A stretch of 20,537 bases of DNA from a virus. The translations under genes were made by a program, and so were the position numbers. Location of the stretch: positions 1-20,537 of the IMG/VR virus record IMGVR_UViG_3300046751_000094; one strand, 5' to 3'. The notes beneath the pieces were generated by a model, which ran no database searches, was not told the origin of the DNA, and worked only from the letters and a program-made list of their open reading frames with translations. This document shows, piece after piece, positions 5,251-19,894 of this stretch (position 1 is the stretch's first letter; each line of letters opens with the position of its first letter).

Positions 5251-6726
5251 TTACTGATCATTTGCCATTCTGTAGGCGCTGTATCCAGCCCCAAGGCCGC
5301 TAATAAGCTGGCCATATACAGATGGATTTTGTGTGAAACTTGATCCCAACTGATAGCTGCGATTTCTGGTGCTGTATGGCGTACCAGACAATGCGCCCAG
5401 AGCGAAGTTGACCATTTCTTGCGGATACATTCTTTGATCCAGATAATCCGCATATGCCATGTCGAGTGCGCGTTGATCCAAAATACGCTGCGCTTCTCCA
5501 GAAGAAATAAGACCAGCCGCTGCTTGGTTTTGAAGATCCGTAACCAGAGTTCCCATATTCTGATATGCGTTCATCTGAGCTATGCGAGCTGCTTCGTCTG
5601 TTTCGAAACCTTGACGCCTTGCTTCTTCTGCTCCAAACCTTGCAGCACGTTCATCACCATAACGACCATACATAACGTCTTCTGCGCCAAATCGTGCAGC
5701 GCGATCTGCTTCTGCTTGTTGCCGCCGAATATCTTCTGCTGAGAACCGACCTTGGCGATCTTCCATAAACTGACCGCGCATGACATCTTCTGCGCCAAAA
5801 CGAGCCGCTTGATCTTCCATGAATTGACCACGCATGACATCTTCTGCACCAAAGCGAGCTTGACGGTCTTCCATGAATTGGCCGCGCATAACGTCTTCTG
5901 CACCGAAACGAGCCTGACGATCACGCTCTGCCTGTGCAACGTCTTGGTCATATCTCTGTGCTGCAAAGCCCAGCCCCTCACGCGCTGCTCTTGCGCGTAG
6001 ATCACCAGCCGCTGTTGCACCCTCTCCAGCCGCTGTGCCTTCCAAAATACCTAGTCGAGATCCACCGAATGCACCACCGCGAGCAGCAGCAGCGCGAGCT
6101 TGGTTTTGAGCCTGTATGGTTTGCTCTTCAATTTCTCGAATGGCTGGGTCCATAGACTGTTGATATATGTCCATGTACTCTTGAGCGTTTTCCATTGAGA
6201 ATGGATCTACGCCTTGTCCAAGTAATTCTTCGCGTGTCGCGCCTTGGTATTCGCCAAGCAAATCTTCGCGTGACGCGCCTTGATACTGGCCAAGCAGTTC
6301 ATCGCGTGTTGCACCTTGATATTGGCCCAGCAATTCATCTGCTGATAATCCTTGGAAATCGCCTTCCAGATAGCTTCTGCTTGCGCCACTATATGGGCTA
6401 CCCATCAACTCAGCACGGCTTGCAGCATCGTATCCTTGGCCTAGCGTGTTGGCTATGGCAGAGGCGCGGTTCATGTATGGCAAATAGTTTTCAGCACCAG
6501 AGCGAAGGATTTCCATGCCTCTGCGCTCATCTTCTGTTAATCTACTGCCTCCGTATGTGGCTGTTCTTTCGCCTGTGTAAATCGGATAGTCAGAGCCAGC
6601 TATACCTGTGGCGGCACTAAAGATTTCGCGGCCAGCAGCAGCAACCCATTCTGGTATTTCTGTGCCTTCAACTGTTTCTGTAGCCGCTGGCAACTCTGTG
6701 TATGATGGTGTGCAAAAACCGCCCAT
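5251..6726 (-). CDS. Repeat-rich internal virion protein (491 aa)
   Basis: ATG directly follows the GNAT stop (TAAATG) with GGAGG upstream. After an N-terminal region with a YGGSRLTEDERRGMEIL segment there are two repeat arrays. The first (residues 99-171) has six units of about 12 aa, consensus YQGATRDELLGQ. The second (270-377) has six units of exactly 18 aa, consensus RQARFGAEDVMRGQFMED. Between them is an Ala/Gly-rich helix (QARAAAARGGAFGGSRLGIL) typical of podovirus internal virion proteins. The C-terminus (LVTDLQNQAAAGLISSG, then NFALGALSGTPY) resembles the end of such proteins too. It is highly charged and coiled in character, with no catalytic motif. A scaffold-like or tube-forming role in the virion core is inferred. 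Confidence 0.7.
   Translation of the reverse strand: MGGFCTPSYTELPAATETVEGTEIPEWVAAAGREIFSAATGIAGSDYPIYTGERTATYGGSRLTEDERRGMEILRSGAENYLPYMNRASAIANTLGQGYDAASRAELMGSPYSGASRSYLEGDFQGLSADELLGQYQGATRDELLGQYQGASREDLLGEYQGATREELLGQGVDPFSMENAQEYMDIYQQSMDPAIREIEEQTIQAQNQARAAAARGGAFGGSRLGILEGTAAGEGATAAGDLRARAAREGLGFAAQRYDQDVAQAERDRQARFGAEDVMRGQFMEDRQARFGAEDVMRGQFMEDQAARFGAEDVMRGQFMEDRQGRFSAEDIRRQQAEADRAARFGAEDVMYGRYGDERAARFGAEEARRQGFETDEAARIAQMNAYQNMGTLVTDLQNQAAAGLISSGEAQRILDQRALDMAYADYLDQRMYPQEMVNFALGALSGTPYSTRNRSYQLGSSFTQNPSVYGQLISGLGAGYSAYRMANDQ
5596..5919 (-). repeat. 54-bp tandem repeat, six units (18 aa each)
   Basis: Encodes residues 270-377 of the 491-aa protein. The first three units are nearly identical at the DNA level (TCTTCCATGAATTG on the + strand recurs every 54 bp) and the last three have diverged while keeping ARFGAED. 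They are contiguous with no spacers. Eighteen residues equal five turns of an alpha helix, so equivalent side chains fall on one face. Confidence 0.85.
6214..6432 (-). repeat. 36-bp tandem repeat, about six units (12 aa each)
   Basis: Encodes residues 99-171 of the 491-aa protein. Four clear units (124-171) read FQGLSADELLGQ, YQGATRDELLGQ, YQGASREDLLGE and YQGATREELLGQ. Two more degenerate units precede them (YDAASRAELMGSP, YSGASRSYLEGD). Confidence 0.8.
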
Positions 6727-13257: not shown

Positions 13258-13491
13258 TTACCGCTCCATTAAGCGGTCTATTTTTTCTTCGATCCGATCA
13301 AACCGTGCGACGATTTGATTCATAACAGCAGAGCTATCAGTCTTTGTGACATACTCTTTTGCCATTTCTTCCCTTGTTTTATTCAAAAGAATTTGAACGC
13401 GCCCAAGTTCAGCGTGTTGTGTTTTTATCCACCAACCTAAACCACCGATTGCAGTGGTTAAGCCTAAGTTTATGAGCGCGTTCATTTCCAT
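13258..13491 (-). CDS. Single-pass membrane protein with C-terminal coiled coil (77 aa)
   Basis: The ATG overlaps the previous stop (TAATG). An N-terminal hydrophobic segment (MNALINLGLTTAIGGLGWWI, residues 3-22) is followed by a charged helical tail (RVQILLNKTREEMAKEYVTK, then QIVARFDRIEEKIDRLMER). This is the layout of XhlA/hemolysin-like or inner-membrane spanin-like phage proteins. Its place a few genes before the holin and endolysin supports a lysis role. However, no partner lipoprotein with a lipobox is seen downstream, so the spanin call is not secure. It could also anchor a virion or takeover function at the membrane. Confidence 0.65.
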   Translation of the reverse strand: MEMNALINLGLTTAIGGLGWWIKTQHAELGRVQILLNKTREEMAKEYVTKTDSSAVMNQIVARFDRIEEKIDRLMER

Positions 13492-13724
13492 TAGTTTACC
13501 ACTTCCGCCTCTTCGACTTCCTCTGGATTTTCCAGAGCGTCAGCCAAGAGTTCAACAAACTTTTCACGGCCTATAGCGAGCTGATCCAAATTAAAACGAG
13601 CGTTGTCCATTTTACGGCCAAGATCGTTCACATGGTTCAAGTATACCTTTTGTTTGTTCGTCATGTCTTCCACAAAGTATTCTTTGTCATTAACTGTGAT
13701 GGGGGTCTTTTCATTTTTACCCAT
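13491..13724 (-). CDS. Small coiled-coil phage protein, DUF6447-like (77 aa)
   Basis: Starts at an ATG preceded by AGGAG. The sequence PITVNDKEYFVEDMTNKQK, then LNHVNDLGRKMDNARFNLDQ matches the pattern I associate with the small phage family DUF6447: a short beta hairpin (ITVNxKEYxxEDM) followed by a long helix with LDQL. It ends with an acidic tail (NPEEVEEAEVVN). Members lie beside tail fibre genes in marine and cyanobacterial phages. No function is established. It overlaps the next start. The family name is from memory and should be confirmed. Confidence 0.6.
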   Translation of the reverse strand: MGKNEKTPITVNDKEYFVEDMTNKQKVYLNHVNDLGRKMDNARFNLDQLAIGREKFVELLADALENPEEVEEAEVVN

Positions 13725-13749
13725 GCTAGTCTCCTATTTTAAGGTTAAG

Positions 13750-14073
13750 TTATGACCACGGTAGGGGTTCTACAGTGGGGCTTACGGGAGGGTTAATCAT
13801 TGAGTTGATCTGCCCATCCACATTCGCTTGGTAGTTTGCAATACCGTTTTCACCAAGATCATCTTGCACCCAGCCTAAAACCTGTGCTTCTGTCAAGTTT
13901 GCATACGGTGTGAAGGTGTCTCCCTCTTGTGAAAATGTGCTGGTTCCAGAAATGCTTGCAGTGTTTGTACCGTCTGTGCCTGTGAGCGTCCACGATACGT
14001 TTACCACAAAGTCTGGTTCTGGTGTCGGCATTGTGGACATTCTGTCTATTGTCCATGTGTATGTAACAGCCAT
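13750..14073 (-). CDS. Fibre-adjacent beta-rich phage protein, DUF7936-like (107 aa)
   Basis: The ATG follows AAGGAGA. The protein opens AVTYTWTIDRMSTMPTPEPD, continues with a strand pair (VNVSWTLTGTDGTNTASISG), then has a helix with LTEAQVLGWVQDDLGENG, and ends in a Pro-rich tail with MINPPVSPTVEPLPW. This TWxIxxM...YxWxxTGTDG...LTExxVLGWVQ...LPW pattern is a recognisable phage family next to fibre genes, which I believe is DUF7936. The role is unknown, probably assembly of or attachment to the fibre or capsid surface, inferred from its neighbours (the long fibre and an XkdW-like protein). Confidence 0.6.
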   Translation of the reverse strand: MAVTYTWTIDRMSTMPTPEPDFVVNVSWTLTGTDGTNTASISGTSTFSQEGDTFTPYANLTEAQVLGWVQDDLGENGIANYQANVDGQINSMINPPVSPTVEPLPWS

Positions 14074-14094
14074 TTTTTTCTCCTTTTTTGATTT

Positions 14095-14406
14095 TTACGG
14101 TTTAGGGTATTTGTTTTTTATGGCTTGTATTTCAGCTTTCCAAGCATCAACCCCTTCGTGAAATATTTTATCTAACTGATCTGCATAAGAGGGATATTCG
14201 GCTTTGCGCTGCACCTGATAGTGTGTGTCTTGGTTAGACATATCATCGGCAATAGCATTGCCTTCGTCCAACCATGCTTGCAGCCTAGCCCAATTTGCAG
14301 ACCCGTCGTTTGTCATTGGAACGATGAAAAACAGATCATCTTCGTTCTGTAAGTGAACGCAGTAGGTATCACGTTCAAGTGTTATATTTGCGTGGTAAAT
14401 TGACAT
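14095..14406 (-). CDS. XkdW-like fibre-associated protein (103 aa)
   Basis: Begins twelve bases after the fibre stop with GGGGGG a few bases before its ATG. The C-terminal part (RKAEYPSYADQLDKIFHEG, then VDAWKAEIQAIKNKYPKP) is the hallmark I know from short phage proteins encoded after tail fibres: a YPxxxDQLDxIxxxG motif and an AIKxxYPKP ending, related to XkdW or the end of fibre assembly proteins. The N-terminal half has strands (YHANITLERDTYCVHLQNED) and WARLQAWLDEGN. A fibre assembly or attachment role is likely but not shown. Confidence 0.65.
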   Translation of the reverse strand: MSIYHANITLERDTYCVHLQNEDDLFFIVPMTNDGSANWARLQAWLDEGNAIADDMSNQDTHYQVQRKAEYPSYADQLDKIFHEGVDAWKAEIQAIKNKYPKP

Positions 14407-14417
14407 AACTAACCCCC

Positions 14418-17400
14418 CTAATATCTTTGTGATTTGTTTAGGACAATATTCATAGAAGGTGCAGCCGCCGACGCAGACGGTGCAACATTAGAATACACTT
14501 GAAGCCTCTTCCCAACACCCGAAACATTAGCAACTCTCATCCTAAAGTCTAAAGAACCTGCCTGTGTGTGAGTTGAATTAACAACTTGTAACTCGCCAAC
14601 AATTGAACCGTTTGTAGTGTATGAGTTTGTAGTCCCAATATATCCTGTATTTGAAGCAACACCTGCAAACTCTGCTTGTGACCTTGTATAGTATCCGTAA
14701 GTTGGGTTTAAAGAGTTTGTGAAAACAATAATTGTTATCACGCCGTCTGCATCAAAAATACCATCATTAAAGTTTACAGCAGTGATGGTTGTCCATGTAT
14801 TTACAGATGAGCTACTATCCCATCCTGTCGCTGCGCCTTGATAAAGTTGCTCTTGTACATAGAATCGTCCACCACTTTGTACAACATCATATGCAAGACT
14901 TACATAAGCAGGGTTTCCATCCCCATCAGATATAAGAGTGGCGTTGCTAACGGTTGTAAGATTGAGGCTGTTCTGGTTTCCGTTATGACCGCCAATGAGT
15001 GTATTACTAGAGCCTGTTGTTATTAATCCACCCGGACCTTGGTTAACTTGCCCTGCTGGGCCTATAAAGGTGTTATAGCTGCCTGAAGTTATATTAATCC
15101 CAGCAGACCGTCCCATTATTAAGTTACCTTGACCAGTATTTGGTCCGTAACCAGAAATGCCGCCAGCATTTGTGCCAATAATTACATTACTATTACCATT
15201 GCCTGAACTATTGGAAAACGCAGAAGAACCAATAATCACATTGCCTTGCCCACCTGTCATTTCGTCGCCAGCAGCAGAACCCAAAATCGTATTTTGGTCG
15301 CCAGTAGTAAGTTTCCAACCCGCAGTATATCCAATCGCGGTGTTGCTGTTTGCGGTAGAATCTATGCTATTAGACGGGCCTGCGGCATAACCCACAAAAG
15401 TATTGTATGCCCCTGTCGTAACATGAGCGCCTGAATTTGAACCCACCATAGTATTAAAACTGCCCAACGATCTGTAGCCAGTCTGAACCCCTACATAAGT
15501 ATTATTTGTCCCCGTGGATTGTAGGAATCCAGCTAAACCACCAAATGCCACATTGTTTGAGCCAATATTTGTGTATAGCGCCCTATCACCAAATGCGGTT
15601 AACCCAGACCCACCTGTGTTTGTGTAAAGTGCTTGTGAGCCTACAGCCGTATTTGTGTAGTCATCGTTGTGATAACCCGCCATAAAGCCGATAAAAACAC
15701 TGTAATCATCATCTTCGCCTAAGTAGGATGCTTGATAACCAATAGCAACTTTATAGTTTGCGTTGTTATTGACCGCTGTCTGATATCCAACAGTGGTTGC
15801 ACCAACCGCTGTAGTTGTCTGCGCAGCAGATTGTAGACCAACCGCAACATTGTAGTTGCCTGACGTTAGTCCAGCAAGAGCCTCATACCCCAAGCCCGTA
15901 TTATTAACTCCAGTGCTTTGTCCTGACACACCCCTTAATGCCTGATACCCAACAGAAGTATTTGAACCTCCTGAAGTAAGAAACCTTCCTGCTCTGTAAC
16001 CCATAGCCGTGTTATTATCGCCATTATTATTGGTTAAGGCTTGCCAACCCACGGCGGTATTTCCAGTCCCTGTGGATAATCCTGCGAGTGCTTGGGCTCC
16101 CACGGCAGCGTTATAATGACCTGTTCCTGTGATTTGTGGTCCTGCTCCATACCCAATAAATACTGAATCTGTACCTGAAGTGTTTCCATACCCAGCATGG
16201 TAACCAACACCTACATTGTTATTTCCAGTTGATTTTCTTAAAGCCTCACGGCCCAACGCCGCATTATTGCTTCCTGTTGTTAAGTATGCTGCTTCAAATC
16301 CCACAGCAGTGTTACTTGTTCCACTTACAAGGCTTGTTAACGCCGCCGCTCCCACTGCCACATTAGAATCCCCTGAAGTAACAGCATTAAGAGTAAAGTT
16401 ACCCAAACCTGTATTTGAATTTCCAGTAACTCCTGCGCTGTCGCGCATAGAGGCTCTTCCCAATGCGAGGTTTTCTGTTCCCGTTGTTATTGCCTTACCC
16501 GCTTGATGTCCAAAGGCAGTATTGTAACTCGCAGTATTAGAATACAGAGCCTGATACCCAACTGCGGTATTTAGACTAGAAGTTTGATTTGAGTATAATG
16601 CTGCATGGCCTAACGCAACATTGTAATTGCCGCTAGTATTTGAGAAAGATGCGCCAGCTCCGATTGCGTTATTTTGAGTGCCAGAAGTGTTTGATTTTAA
16701 AGCCTCTTTGCCAATAGCAACGGTTTCAATTCCAGTATGAACCCCACTTAATGCAAGTGATCCCAACGCGACATTGAAATTACTACTAACAGTAGCACTT
16801 AAAGCATTGTATCCAACCGCAACATTTTGATCTCCGGTTTGATTTAAAAGCATCGCTTGCATACCCACCGCCACGTTTGCCGCGCCAGAAGAATTTGTAG
16901 CCAAGGCTTTTCGACCTATGGCGACATGGTGGTTAGATGCTGTGTTTGCAGTCAAGGCTTGATGACCAATAGCAACATTGTTGTCGCCCGATACATTTGA
17001 ATCAAATGCCCCATCACCCAACGCCACGTTTTCCGTACCAACAGGATAATTCCCATCCAGCTTGATTGTGCCGCCATCGACTGACAGGTTGCCATTAATC
17101 TGTAATTTGTCTTCGCTTTCATCCCAAAGCATATACTTACCAGAAGTAGCGCCAAAGAATTTTACATCATATCCTGTATCATCAACGCCAACATTAATTA
17201 TGCCGTCAATATCAACATTTGTTGATGTAATTTCAATTTTAGTATCCGCATCAATGTCCAACTGACCATCTGCACTTGAGCTTATAGATAACGCACTGTC
17301 ACGAAATTGTAGCGTAGGAGCGCCACCACCAGTTTCAGTTAGCAATAATCCTGTATCAGCAACATGGGTAAGCTGTATTTCACTGTCAGAACCAAAATCA

Positions 17401-17903
17401 ATTTTTGCACCATCAGAATTCATAATGATGTCATGACCGACTGTCAGATCATCATCTACAAACAAATCAGCAATGGCCAAATCTTGCGTAAGCTCAACAA
17501 CATTAGATCCAGCACCAATGCCATCTGTGGCAATGATCTTGGTTGTGCCGTTGGCCAAAGTAACATTAGACCCAGATCCTGCGCTGATCGTAAGTGTCTG
17601 GCCACCGCTGGTGTTATTTTCAATAATCCAAACTTTACTGGTGGTATTTGGAGCCAGAGTAACAACTCTAGTGGTGGTTAAATCTTCACTGGAGTTTATT
17701 TTTAGAGCGAGAGAACGAGCAGCGTCAGCCGCACCATCAGCAATGGTAATAGTCGTATCTGCGTTAGCAATGGTTTCTGTGCCGTAACTAAACGCATCTG
17801 CGATTAATTCGAGGTTTGTATTGGTCTTCGTACCCCATGAGCCAGAGTTCTCCCCTGTGGCCATTTCTTCGAGGCGAAGGTCATTTTCATAGGTACTAGC
17901 CAT
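14418..17903 (-). CDS. Long tail fibre with YadA-like repeats (1161 aa)
   Basis: Likely binds the host surface. The N-terminus (ASTYENDLRLEEMATGENSG, then WGTKTNTNLELI) is the virion-attachment segment common to marine phage fibres. Residues about 45-145 form a beta-rich domain (LAPNTTSKVWIIENNTSGG). Residues about 150-285 are short beta repeats. From about 292 to 985 come about 40 repeats of the type NTAVGYQAL...N-S-G-x-x, the Hep_Hag/YadA-head pattern that makes a trimeric left-handed beta-roll. The last 175 residues are a non-repetitive beta-rich tip (VQEQLYQGAATGWDSSSSVN, then FDADGVITIIVFTN), probably receptor binding. I see no S74 peptidase motif. AAGGAT precedes the ATG. Confidence 0.85.
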   Translation of the reverse strand: MASTYENDLRLEEMATGENSGSWGTKTNTNLELIADAFSYGTETIANADTTITIADGAADAARSLALKINSSEDLTTTRVVTLAPNTTSKVWIIENNTSGGQTLTISAGSGSNVTLANGTTKIIATDGIGAGSNVVELTQDLAIADLFVDDDLTVGHDIIMNSDGAKIDFGSDSEIQLTHVADTGLLLTETGGGAPTLQFRDSALSISSSADGQLDIDADTKIEITSTNVDIDGIINVGVDDTGYDVKFFGATSGKYMLWDESEDKLQINGNLSVDGGTIKLDGNYPVGTENVALGDGAFDSNVSGDNNVAIGHQALTANTASNHHVAIGRKALATNSSGAANVAVGMQAMLLNQTGDQNVAVGYNALSATVSSNFNVALGSLALSGVHTGIETVAIGKEALKSNTSGTQNNAIGAGASFSNTSGNYNVALGHAALYSNQTSSLNTAVGYQALYSNTASYNTAFGHQAGKAITTGTENLALGRASMRDSAGVTGNSNTGLGNFTLNAVTSGDSNVAVGAAALTSLVSGTSNTAVGFEAAYLTTGSNNAALGREALRKSTGNNNVGVGYHAGYGNTSGTDSVFIGYGAGPQITGTGHYNAAVGAQALAGLSTGTGNTAVGWQALTNNNGDNNTAMGYRAGRFLTSGGSNTSVGYQALRGVSGQSTGVNNTGLGYEALAGLTSGNYNVAVGLQSAAQTTTAVGATTVGYQTAVNNNANYKVAIGYQASYLGEDDDYSVFIGFMAGYHNDDYTNTAVGSQALYTNTGGSGLTAFGDRALYTNIGSNNVAFGGLAGFLQSTGTNNTYVGVQTGYRSLGSFNTMVGSNSGAHVTTGAYNTFVGYAAGPSNSIDSTANSNTAIGYTAGWKLTTGDQNTILGSAAGDEMTGGQGNVIIGSSAFSNSSGNGNSNVIIGTNAGGISGYGPNTGQGNLIMGRSAGINITSGSYNTFIGPAGQVNQGPGGLITTGSSNTLIGGHNGNQNSLNLTTVSNATLISDGDGNPAYVSLAYDVVQSGGRFYVQEQLYQGAATGWDSSSSVNTWTTITAVNFNDGIFDADGVITIIVFTNSLNPTYGYYTRSQAEFAGVASNTGYIGTTNSYTTNGSIVGELQVVNSTHTQAGSLDFRMRVANVSGVGKRLQVYSNVAPSASAAAPSMNIVLNKSQRY
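14950..17030 (-). repeat. About 40 degenerate YadA/Hep_Hag repeats in the fibre
   Basis: Each unit has a core N-x-A-(V/I/L)-G-x-x-A followed by a turn with Asn, Ser, Thr and Gly. Spacing is mostly 14 to 20 residues. The order of examples is NVALGDGAF, NVAIGHQAL, NVAVGYNAL, NTAVGYQAL, then later NTFVGYAAG, NTILGSAAG, NVIIGTNAG. The array drifts from A-L endings near the N-terminus to A-G endings near the tip. Confidence 0.8.
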
Positions 17904-18345: not shown

Positions 18346-18971
18346 TATAAACCTCCGTTATATTCTGCTGCGTAGTCTCGCTGCATCTCTTGTACAAATA
18401 ATTGCACTGCTTCGTCAAATTGTGTCTTATAAAGTGCTAAAGTTTCTCCAGCTTTTAAGAAAGCTGATGCTTCGTAAAGACACGCTGCTAATAACACATT
18501 TTCTGCGTTATCTCCAATCCAAGTATTCGCGTTACTTGAACTTAAACCTGTTTCTGGGGCGATATAATCAACTTGATAAGTTGATGTTGTAGCGTCTGGA
18601 GTGGGCGCAACAGTAAAAGTTGTGCCGCCAGTTGCCGCTGTTTTTGTGCTATACATTTCAGGAACGCCTTGAGTTGTGGCGTTTGGCCAATAATCACGCA
18701 AATATGAATCCACTCTGTGATTTAGGTATGACGTTACATTTGCAGTAATCACAGAAACTTGTCTAATCATTCGCGCAGACGGCACAGTATAATCTGTTGT
18801 ACCTTGCACCAGTGCTGCTGATGCATTTTTCCTAAAGCAAGGCAAATTTGGTAGGCGCTGAAAGATCATCTCTTCAGCCTGTGCTATGATTTGATCAATG
18901 GAAGTAGTCAGCTCCGCGCTGTCATCTTCCAGAAAGTTTTCGATGTTAGCTTTTAGCTGCGTATAATTCAT
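18345..18971 (-). CDS. Adaptor-like head-tail connector protein (208 aa)
   Basis: ATGA overlap with the previous gene. The layout is that of podovirus adaptors (P22 gp4 or SU10-type): N-terminal helices (YTQLKANIENFLEDDSAELT, then IDQIIAQAEEMIFQRLPNL), a beta section starting with the G-T-x-x-Y-T-V-P motif (VQGTTDYTVPSARMIRQVSV), a TFTVAPTPDATTSTYQVDYI strand pair, and C-terminal helices (NAENVLLAACLYEASAFLK). It shares this layout with the truncated gene at the right edge, so the two may be paralogues forming successive rings of the neck. No enzyme motif is present. The fold call is from pattern, not from a search. Confidence 0.65.
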   Translation of the reverse strand: MNYTQLKANIENFLEDDSAELTTSIDQIIAQAEEMIFQRLPNLPCFRKNASAALVQGTTDYTVPSARMIRQVSVITANVTSYLNHRVDSYLRDYWPNATTQGVPEMYSTKTAATGGTTFTVAPTPDATTSTYQVDYIAPETGLSSSNANTWIGDNAENVLLAACLYEASAFLKAGETLALYKTQFDEAVQLFVQEMQRDYAAEYNGGL

Positions 18972-19894
18972 AGCCCATTACCCCATGTTCCGTTACCCCA
19001 AGCATTGTTACCCCAACCTACTGCTAGATCCACAGATCCTATTGCCCCTGTACCAGCCAAGCCTGTTTCGCTTATTTCAGCTTCTGCCACTTCGCTGCCT
19101 GTTGTGCCTACGCCGCCAAGACCAGTAACTGGGCCAACAATAATATTGAAGTCACTGCCAGCCCCAGTTCCAATCACATGAACAGATCCAGTGCCAGATA
19201 CGCCAGAAACATCTATTTCAGACACGGCTGTTTCTGTGCCTATTGCGCCTGTTCCAGCTACGCCTGTTGGGTTTAGTATGCTTTCAATAACTTGCAGATT
19301 AACTGCGCCTGTTCCAGCAACACCTGTCTCTGTGATTTCTGCCTCTGGAACTTCAGTTCCAATTGCGCCTGTACCAGCCACGCCATCCGTAGTAGTAGCC
19401 GTGGCAAATACACCAAGAGCGCCTGTGCCGATCACACTGGTGACGTTTACATCTGTTGATATGATAACTTGATAATTACCAATTGCGCCTGTACCAGCCG
19501 CTGCATTGATAGCTGGGTTTGGATAAACAGTACCCACAGCGCCTGTACCAGCCACACCAGTGACCGAAACGTCCATTTCTATCACAGACCCATGCGAAAC
19601 CACTCCAAGGCCGTGTACGCCCACTGGAGGGCGATCTTGGACAGGCGTAAAGATGTCGAAGTTGTACCCTATAAATACCTCTGCATTTTCAGGATCATTA
19701 TCTGGACGCGGATTAAACAGCGCCGTGGCATCAACAACATTTTTGGCTGGTGTTAGCTGTGGTTGTTTTGGCTCCCAGTCATCTGGAGATACGCGCAATC
19801 CATCCCAAGTGGTCATAAGGTCCGTATATGGAACCTTTAGGCCACCTCTGTCGCTTATCGCTTGGGATTTTTTGCCTCTTGCGTATTTTGCCAT
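18968..19894 (-). CDS. Repeat-containing structural protein with GVAGTGAIGT repeats (308 aa)
   Basis: The N-terminus (ARGKKSQAISDRGGLKVPYT, then VSPDDWEPKQPQLTP) is a conserved start I know from marine phages, where it is encoded between the neck proteins. After residue 110 come nine repeats of G-V-A-G-T-G-A-I-G-T, spaced about 20 residues with strand-forming segments between. The end is a Trp-Gly-Asn motif (GWGNNAWGNGTWGN). There is no membrane segment or enzyme motif. TAATG overlap with the upstream adaptor. It is likely a virion decoration or neck/tail surface protein, inferred from position and repeats. Confidence 0.65.
   Translation of the reverse strand: MAKYARGKKSQAISDRGGLKVPYTDLMTTWDGLRVSPDDWEPKQPQLTPAKNVVDATALFNPRPDNDPENAEVFIGYNFDIFTPVQDRPPVGVHGLGVVSHGSVIEMDVSVTGVAGTGAVGTVYPNPAINAAAGTGAIGNYQVIISTDVNVTSVIGTGALGVFATATTTDGVAGTGAIGTEVPEAEITETGVAGTGAVNLQVIESILNPTGVAGTGAIGTETAVSEIDVSGVSGTGSVHVIGTGAGSDFNIIVGPVTGLGGVGTTGSEVAEAEISETGLAGTGAIGSVDLAVGWGNNAWGNGTWGNGL
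19034..19558 (-). repeat. Nine repeats of about 60 bp (GVAGTGAIGT) in the 308-aa gene
   Basis: The DNA core, GCGCCTGTACCAGC on the + strand, recurs with small changes about every 60 bases. Units begin near residues 113, 131, 153, 171, 191, 211, 231, 258 and 278. Four are almost identical (GVAGTGA) and the others have drifted (SVIGTGALGV, GLGGVGTTGS). Confidence 0.8.

Follow-up and report, generated by a model that had tools for sequence, protein, structure and literature searches.

A modular tail fibre with a capped array of seventeen-residue repeats in a relative of roseophage CRP-902

Here we describe the tail-fibre gene of the window, that is, the whole stretch of 20,537 bases analysed, which comes from an IMG/VR virus record. 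The gene quite probably encodes a modular tail fibre of a CRP-901-type roseophage, with an anchored N-terminus, a spacer rod of about 40 turns, a cap, and a host-binding tip, subject to cassette exchange. The conserved N-terminal domain would fix the fibre to the virion (as its conservation suggests), some 40 turns of seventeen residues would stack into a beta-solenoid rod of about 19 nm (predicted fold, calculated length), a terminal A-G module with an SDGDGNP cap would close this rod, and the unique tip may bind the host surface. Between near-identical phages, all that follows the N-terminal domain is exchanged along with the small genes next to the fibre, and arrays differ by whole units. 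The design is ordinary and modular; the class of repeat plus cap is widespread and structurally unsolved. Fibre tips decide the host range of phages, and the exchange of a tip without breakage of the rod is a practical question. The conserved cap, arrays of 6 to 64 turns, and the existence of cultured carriers make both reach and tip exchange testable.

The features concerned are as follows, all on the minus strand:

14418..17903 (-): tail-fibre gene of 1161 aa, an intact single frame from ATG
17454..17903 (-): N-terminal part, residues 1-150, conserved across fibres
17031..17453 (-): exchangeable middle part, residues 151-291, mostly absent in locus L024; identity to CRP-902 fades at about residue 188
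15006..17030 (-): repeat units 1-39, residues 292-966, supported by motif chain, profile parser, and structure model
14910..15005 (-): unit 40 of the array with the C-terminal cap, residues 967-998 (NTLIGGHNGNQ...LISDGDGNP), supported by cap comparison
14418..14909 (-): orphan tip, residues 999-1161, without relatives; predicted receptor-binding domain
13491..14406 (-): three small genes (103, 107, and 77 aa) downstream of the fibre, which differ together with it

The fibre gene and its exchanged cassette

Judged by its sequence, the window phage is a CRP-901-type roseophage, a marine phage whose related isolates infect Roseobacter bacteria. In protein comparison, its gene order is collinear with that of the cultured Roseobacter phage CRP-902 from gp54 (tail adaptor) through gp40. 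The fibre gene lies within the virion structural cluster, matches PHROGs 6002, 4636, and 23837 (virion structural or tail spike; E 5.5e-77 to 1.6e-52), and occupies the place of gp50 of CRP-902 and CRP-901, two cultured CHAB-I-5 roseophages whose gp50 is called tail fibre in passages of the paper describing them (PMC10149686). The preliminary description had therefore rightly taken the protein for a phage fibre.

Most structural genes to either side of the fibre share 90-100% identity with those of CRP-902 (four upstream neighbours, 96-99%; the downstream genes compared, from 13258 to 3816, 83-100%). The fibre itself matches CRP-902 gp50 only over residues 1-188 (87% identity), and of the three small genes behind it one (14095-14406) has no match and the others reach 30% and 44%, against 83-100% for all other compared genes except the fibre. 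Because the drop in identity is confined to this region, we conclude that a cassette beginning inside the fibre gene and taking in the small genes has been replaced between near twins, of which it is the main difference over the compared region. The fibre is shared to about residue 188 and then replaced, so that what was swapped is probably a host-recognition cassette. In place of the array, gp50 of CRP-902 and CRP-901 has a motif chain of at most two units, and the tips differ as well.

The N-terminal part had 459 relatives in IMG/VR, of which the best 80 were kept. Residues 1-130 are 90-98% identical in 16 other fibres (14 IMG/VR loci picked as closest, CRP-901, and CRP-902), and the shafts behind this shared N-terminus differ among the 16, except in one identical pair (L005 and L006); the array is common to the window fibre and L024 only. 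A conserved N-terminus thus stands before an exchangeable shaft and tip, and, because it is conserved, the N-terminal part would serve virion attachment. Over 3 kb of upstream genes and the N-terminus, L024 and the window are 94% identical in DNA. The middle part is mostly missing from L024, where residue 150 is joined straight to GNLSVDGGTIKLDGNYPVG; about six units at the start of its array match those of the window at 90.6% DNA identity, and the units after them are different. Several other, independent pairs likewise lose DNA identity within the N-terminal part, and two (L136/L138 and L150/L151) lose it inside the array. Counts of N-terminal families were set aside, as low-complexity stretches fall within the cut on which they were based.

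The 103-aa product of the gene directly behind the fibre (14095-14406, minus strand) ends in YPSYADQLD, belongs with PHROGs of function not known (9114, 2687, and 1787), and has no match in the compared regions of CRP-902 and CRP-901; it is a candidate fibre-specific helper. The motif YPxxDQLD was considered as a general marker of a linked fibre chaperone and rejected, as it occurred with 2 of the 88 array genes that have 1 kb of downstream sequence. The 107-aa product of the next gene (13750-14073, minus strand) matches DUF7936 (E 1.5e-25) and, at 30% identity to its CRP-902 counterpart, has diverged along with the fibre.

The repeat array and its predicted fold

A motif chain recovers 40 units from residue 292, with 24 of the 39 gaps measuring 17 residues and eight measuring 16; shuffling the fibre protein 500 times gave chains of no more than eight (mean, 3.3). 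A trained profile-based parser of nine positions recovered 39 of the 40 units, and found no chain of four or more in shuffled segments. Including its last unit, the array spans residues 292-983. Earlier estimates of about 40 repeats making up some 60 percent of the fibre are therefore sound. At 4.8 Å per turn, the rise given for BpaC in passages of PMC9543794, the 40 units amount to approximately 19 nm (40 × 0.48 nm), so that ‘very long’, as the fibre had been called, does not apply. The DNA of the units is only modestly similar (mean core identity between neighbours, 0.485; best pair, 0.72) and Tandem Repeats Finder reported no DNA tandem array at the repeat region; the units thus show no trace of having been duplicated recently, and an assembly artefact has little scope here.

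The core reads x-x-A-[hydrophobic]-G-x-x-[A/S], as in YadA, with A at position 3 in 24 and at position 8 in 32 of the 40 units; the G at position 5, present in all 40, carries no weight since the motif pattern demands it. With the YadA head (PF05658, a left-handed parallel beta-roll) the array shares this core motif with its invariant G and the logic of a repeat-built rod, but differs in period, in profile, and in anchor. The period is 17 residues in the window and its relatives and 14 in YadA loci, in agreement with the 14-residue layers of the YadA-type left-handed beta-roll (PMC9543794, in part). YadA_head scored 8.5 and 4.4 bits, inside the array or at its start, against a curated Pfam cut-off of 25, and gave no match in the fibre by hmmscan; as a yardstick, three of four genomes passed in a similar search, true YadA arrays reaching 39.7 bits. 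With hhalign, searching one profile, the local probability was 17.7% (E 0.0014), compared with 2.3% for permuted columns. Additionally, the protein lies in a phage gene neighbourhood, and Pfam gave no match in residues 985-1161 to a C-terminal membrane anchor of the kind found in trimeric autotransporter adhesins. Given the period, the score of 8.5 bits, and the low hhalign probability, we do not file the array as a YadA member despite its similar core, and the earlier label ‘YadA/Hep_Hag-type’ is not retained as stated; a 17-residue array may still work like a YadA head.

AlphaFold2, run on a single chain (residues 285-640) with ten relatives, returned a confident solenoid (pLDDT 85, pTM 0.81). 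No solved relative was found by sequence in the PDB, and a Foldseek comparison of the model with the PDB yielded nothing at E ≤ 0.001. VIA superposed the model best on chain G of 7akv (Z 19.2; 288 of 356 residues at 3.1 Å), and the VIA matches shown are dominated by helices that we take to be right-handed; YadA, BpaC, and UspA1 structures are absent among those listed, an absence that does not exclude them. In a toy calculation with ideal coils, equal handedness aligned the whole query at 2.4-3.3 Å and opposite handedness aligned only 34-43% of it. Given this calculation and the right-handed superpositions, the single-chain model is very probably a right-handed beta-solenoid. This speaks against the left-handed beta-roll proposed beforehand, a fold other than which had been named as grounds for abandoning the proposal, but it is not decisive, because AlphaFold2 can mislead on repeats: passages of PMC11795689 report confident false solenoids for perfect repeats and leave imperfect ones open.

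Two readings of the fold are possible, and to each of them we would give less than even odds. The first takes the array for a genuine trimeric left-handed beta-roll of the YadA type, with three additional residues in one loop of every turn. The common core [S/N]-[T/V]-A-[I/V/L/M]-G-x-x-A is consistent with it, as is the profile alignment, which places a three-residue gap after the core; passages of PMC9543794 give mostly 15 residues for the turns of UspA1, and PMC3909814, in the part describing it, reports a marine tail fibre whose variable region includes a YadA domain at the C-terminal end. The period, the YadA_head score, and the superposition on right-handed solenoids, which the toy coils tie to equal handedness, all count against it. 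The second, equally tentative reading makes the array another kind of beta-solenoid, either right-handed, as in the model, or a left-handed hexapeptide-type helix, with no more than a superficial likeness to YadA. The confident model with its right-handed superpositions and the lack of a solved relative by sequence argue for it, together with faint matches of some relatives to left-handed helix families (LbH_EIF2B in 4 of 11 sequences, best E 6e-4; LbH_GLGC in 2 of 11, best E 0.015), but these hints contradict each other on handedness, and the model is that of a single chain from 11 sequences, made by a program that can return such false solenoids (PMC11795689, in part).

YadA-like fibres in marine phages have been on record since 2014. 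The fibre of PMC3909814 resembles that of the window in having its YadA-like part in a variable region, a likeness by description, the portion of the description available containing neither a repeat period nor a cap; passages of PMC3728262 list yadA homologues in several phages. A literature search, a weak test, returned no paper on the 17-residue class, only these two YadA notes for phages.

The terminal module, the cap, and the tip

The preliminary description had noticed a gradual change from A-L to A-G cores along the array and had read it as ordered growth. The window does show the change (for G at core position 9 across its 40 units, Spearman 0.53, p 4e-4), and a positive trend is seen in 54 of 61 other complete clusters (62 with the window), comprising 40 of 41 other capped clusters and 14 of 20 without a cap, the latter not significant. 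Resolved by position, it forms a step, with G in 83-100% at each of the four units nearest the cap, in 51% at the fifth, and mostly in 10-30% earlier. An array has on average 5.3 units (s.d. 2.1) whose core position 3 is bulky; these scarcely increase as arrays lengthen (slope 0.07), the length being made up by the other units (slope 0.93). With the last five units removed, the trend is positive in 25 of 49 relatives, but the window fibre retains it (rho 0.57, p 4e-4). Given the step and the loss of the trend in the relatives, the sequences suggest that the change mainly reflects a conserved terminal module of four to five units beside the SDGDGNP cap and not a record of growth. Gradual change thus describes the window fibre, in relatives it is a terminal step, and ordered growth fails for the family; the longer gradient belongs to the window fibre alone. 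The CRP-7 cap query (523 IMG/VR relatives, best 80 kept) spans the last four units, so that the A-G content of that set is partly due to selection, yet loci found without it also show the trend (L030, L093, L095, and L097; rho 0.39, 0.56, 0.69, and 0.31). The opposite trend is seen in P-SSM2 (L099), SPO1 (L100), and some bacterial arrays.

After the last unit, the cap follows the pattern GNQ-x-x-[L/V]-[D/N]-[I/L]-x-T-x-SN-...-SDGDGNP, which is present in CRP-7, CRP-1, and L030 and slightly changed in a Manatee Spring phage. The cap region occurs in CRP-7, CRP-1, CRP-831, S-SCSM1, and two Manatee Spring phages (seven phage records by direct search), and the cap is present in 42 of the 62 complete array clusters.

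Tips behind the cap measure 111-277 residues. An S74-like end, as detected by our own profile, is found in 43 of the 62 complete array clusters and in 29 of the 42 with a cap; the window is one of the 13 capped clusters without it, and its tip is alone in its family. No Peptidase_S74 match was obtained in the window protein or its tip, with the same library that detected this domain in five of nine relatives scanned, and residues 985-1161 have no Pfam match and no usable relative in IMG/VR scans, the phage collection (tblastn), the PDB, or the fetched loci. Both the uniqueness of the tip and the lack of a visible S74 chaperone, as previously claimed, are thereby borne out. An AlphaFold2 model of residues 850-1161 with 59 capped relatives was set aside, as its pLDDT was 57 overall and mostly 40-55 within the tip.

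Variation, distribution, and role of the repeats

Applied to 192 sequences, the parser identified 127 array proteins (112 distinct, 68 with complete ORFs); besides phages in culture, the set takes in named phages from marine and fresh waters, IMG/VR contigs, and genomes of bacteria, chiefly Bacteroidota. Among at least 2792 gaps, 2244 measure 17 residues, 301 measure 16, and 96 measure 18. Complete ORFs contain 6 to 64 units, equivalent to calculated rods of 3-31 nm at 0.48 nm per unit. Arrays also differ by whole units: one alignment of the window with L024 contains gaps of 17 and 35 residues, and L136 and L138 differ by 34, both comparisons mixing replacement and length change, since the L136/L138 gap falls where their identity ends and the window/L024 gaps lie partly where those two diverge; a cleaner case is a gap of 33 residues between two copies in L102, which align over 643 residues with 87% identity. 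The number of repeats thus varies, in keeping with the variable length that had been anticipated.

Among cultured phages, CRP-1, CRP-7, HTVC111P, P-SSM2, and SPO1 carry the repeats. CRP-7 gp48, CRP-1 gp37, and CRP-831_29 share the 17-residue array, the terminal A-G module, and the SDGDGN cap with the window fibre, but have 24, 24, and 11 units, respectively, and another tip. The pelagiphage fibres HTVC111P gp52 and HTVC112P gp48 have 17-residue arrays of 33 and 30 units, but an S74-like end and no SDGDGNP cap that could be found. Bacteroidota and other bacteria have proteins with similar repeats, and the closest entries in BFVD (predicted structures) are proteins of Bodo saltans virus, chlorovirus-repeat proteins, and those of other viruses.

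In view of the replaced cassettes and the whole-unit differences, tip exchange and spacer length would be the variable elements of this fibre. The array is probably a spacer that holds out the unique tip; the tip may bind the receptor, the fibre may form a trimer, and host range may be affected. We also suggest, tentatively and with less confidence than we have in the modular fibre, that the 17-residue repeat and SDGDGNP cap might constitute a solenoid rod of a structure not yet described, ending in a standard socket. In such a rod, the A-G module and cap would accept unrelated tips and gain or loss of A-L units would set reach in steps of approximately 0.5 nm; the repeat would be common to phages of several groups, some bacteria, and giant viruses.

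Ligands are bound by the heads of trimeric adhesins, and the repeats themselves could accordingly bind the host surface, with unit number tuning avidity. The occurrence of similar repeats in bacterial and giant-virus proteins is compatible with this reading, but the array is common to phages with different tips, and we regard it as unlikely. That repeat numbers or junctions are assembly artefacts is highly improbable: most relatives are metagenome contigs, in which repeats are prone to misassembly, and L136/L138 identity stops inside the array, but window units are at most 72% DNA-identical over the core and form no DNA tandem array, and cultured CRP-7, CRP-1, HTVC111P, and HTVC112P have the same arrays, with 24 to 33 units.

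The two L102 copies, from a Flavobacteriales MAG contig, are large proteins with 36 and 38 such units and likely represent a recent duplication in a bacterium. Within the window, two further proteins are repetitive. The 308-aa virion-cluster protein encoded at 18968-19894 (minus strand) contains repeated VAGTGAIG-like segments, and a similar protein in L015 was caught by a looser motif chain. The predicted structural protein encoded at 5251-6726 (minus strand) has tandem repeats of 12 aa (YQGATREELLGQ) and 18 aa (RFGAEDVMRGQFMEDRQA); in alignments, it has one more 12-aa unit than its CRP-902 counterpart, and one more 12-aa unit and one more 18-aa unit than that of CRP-901.
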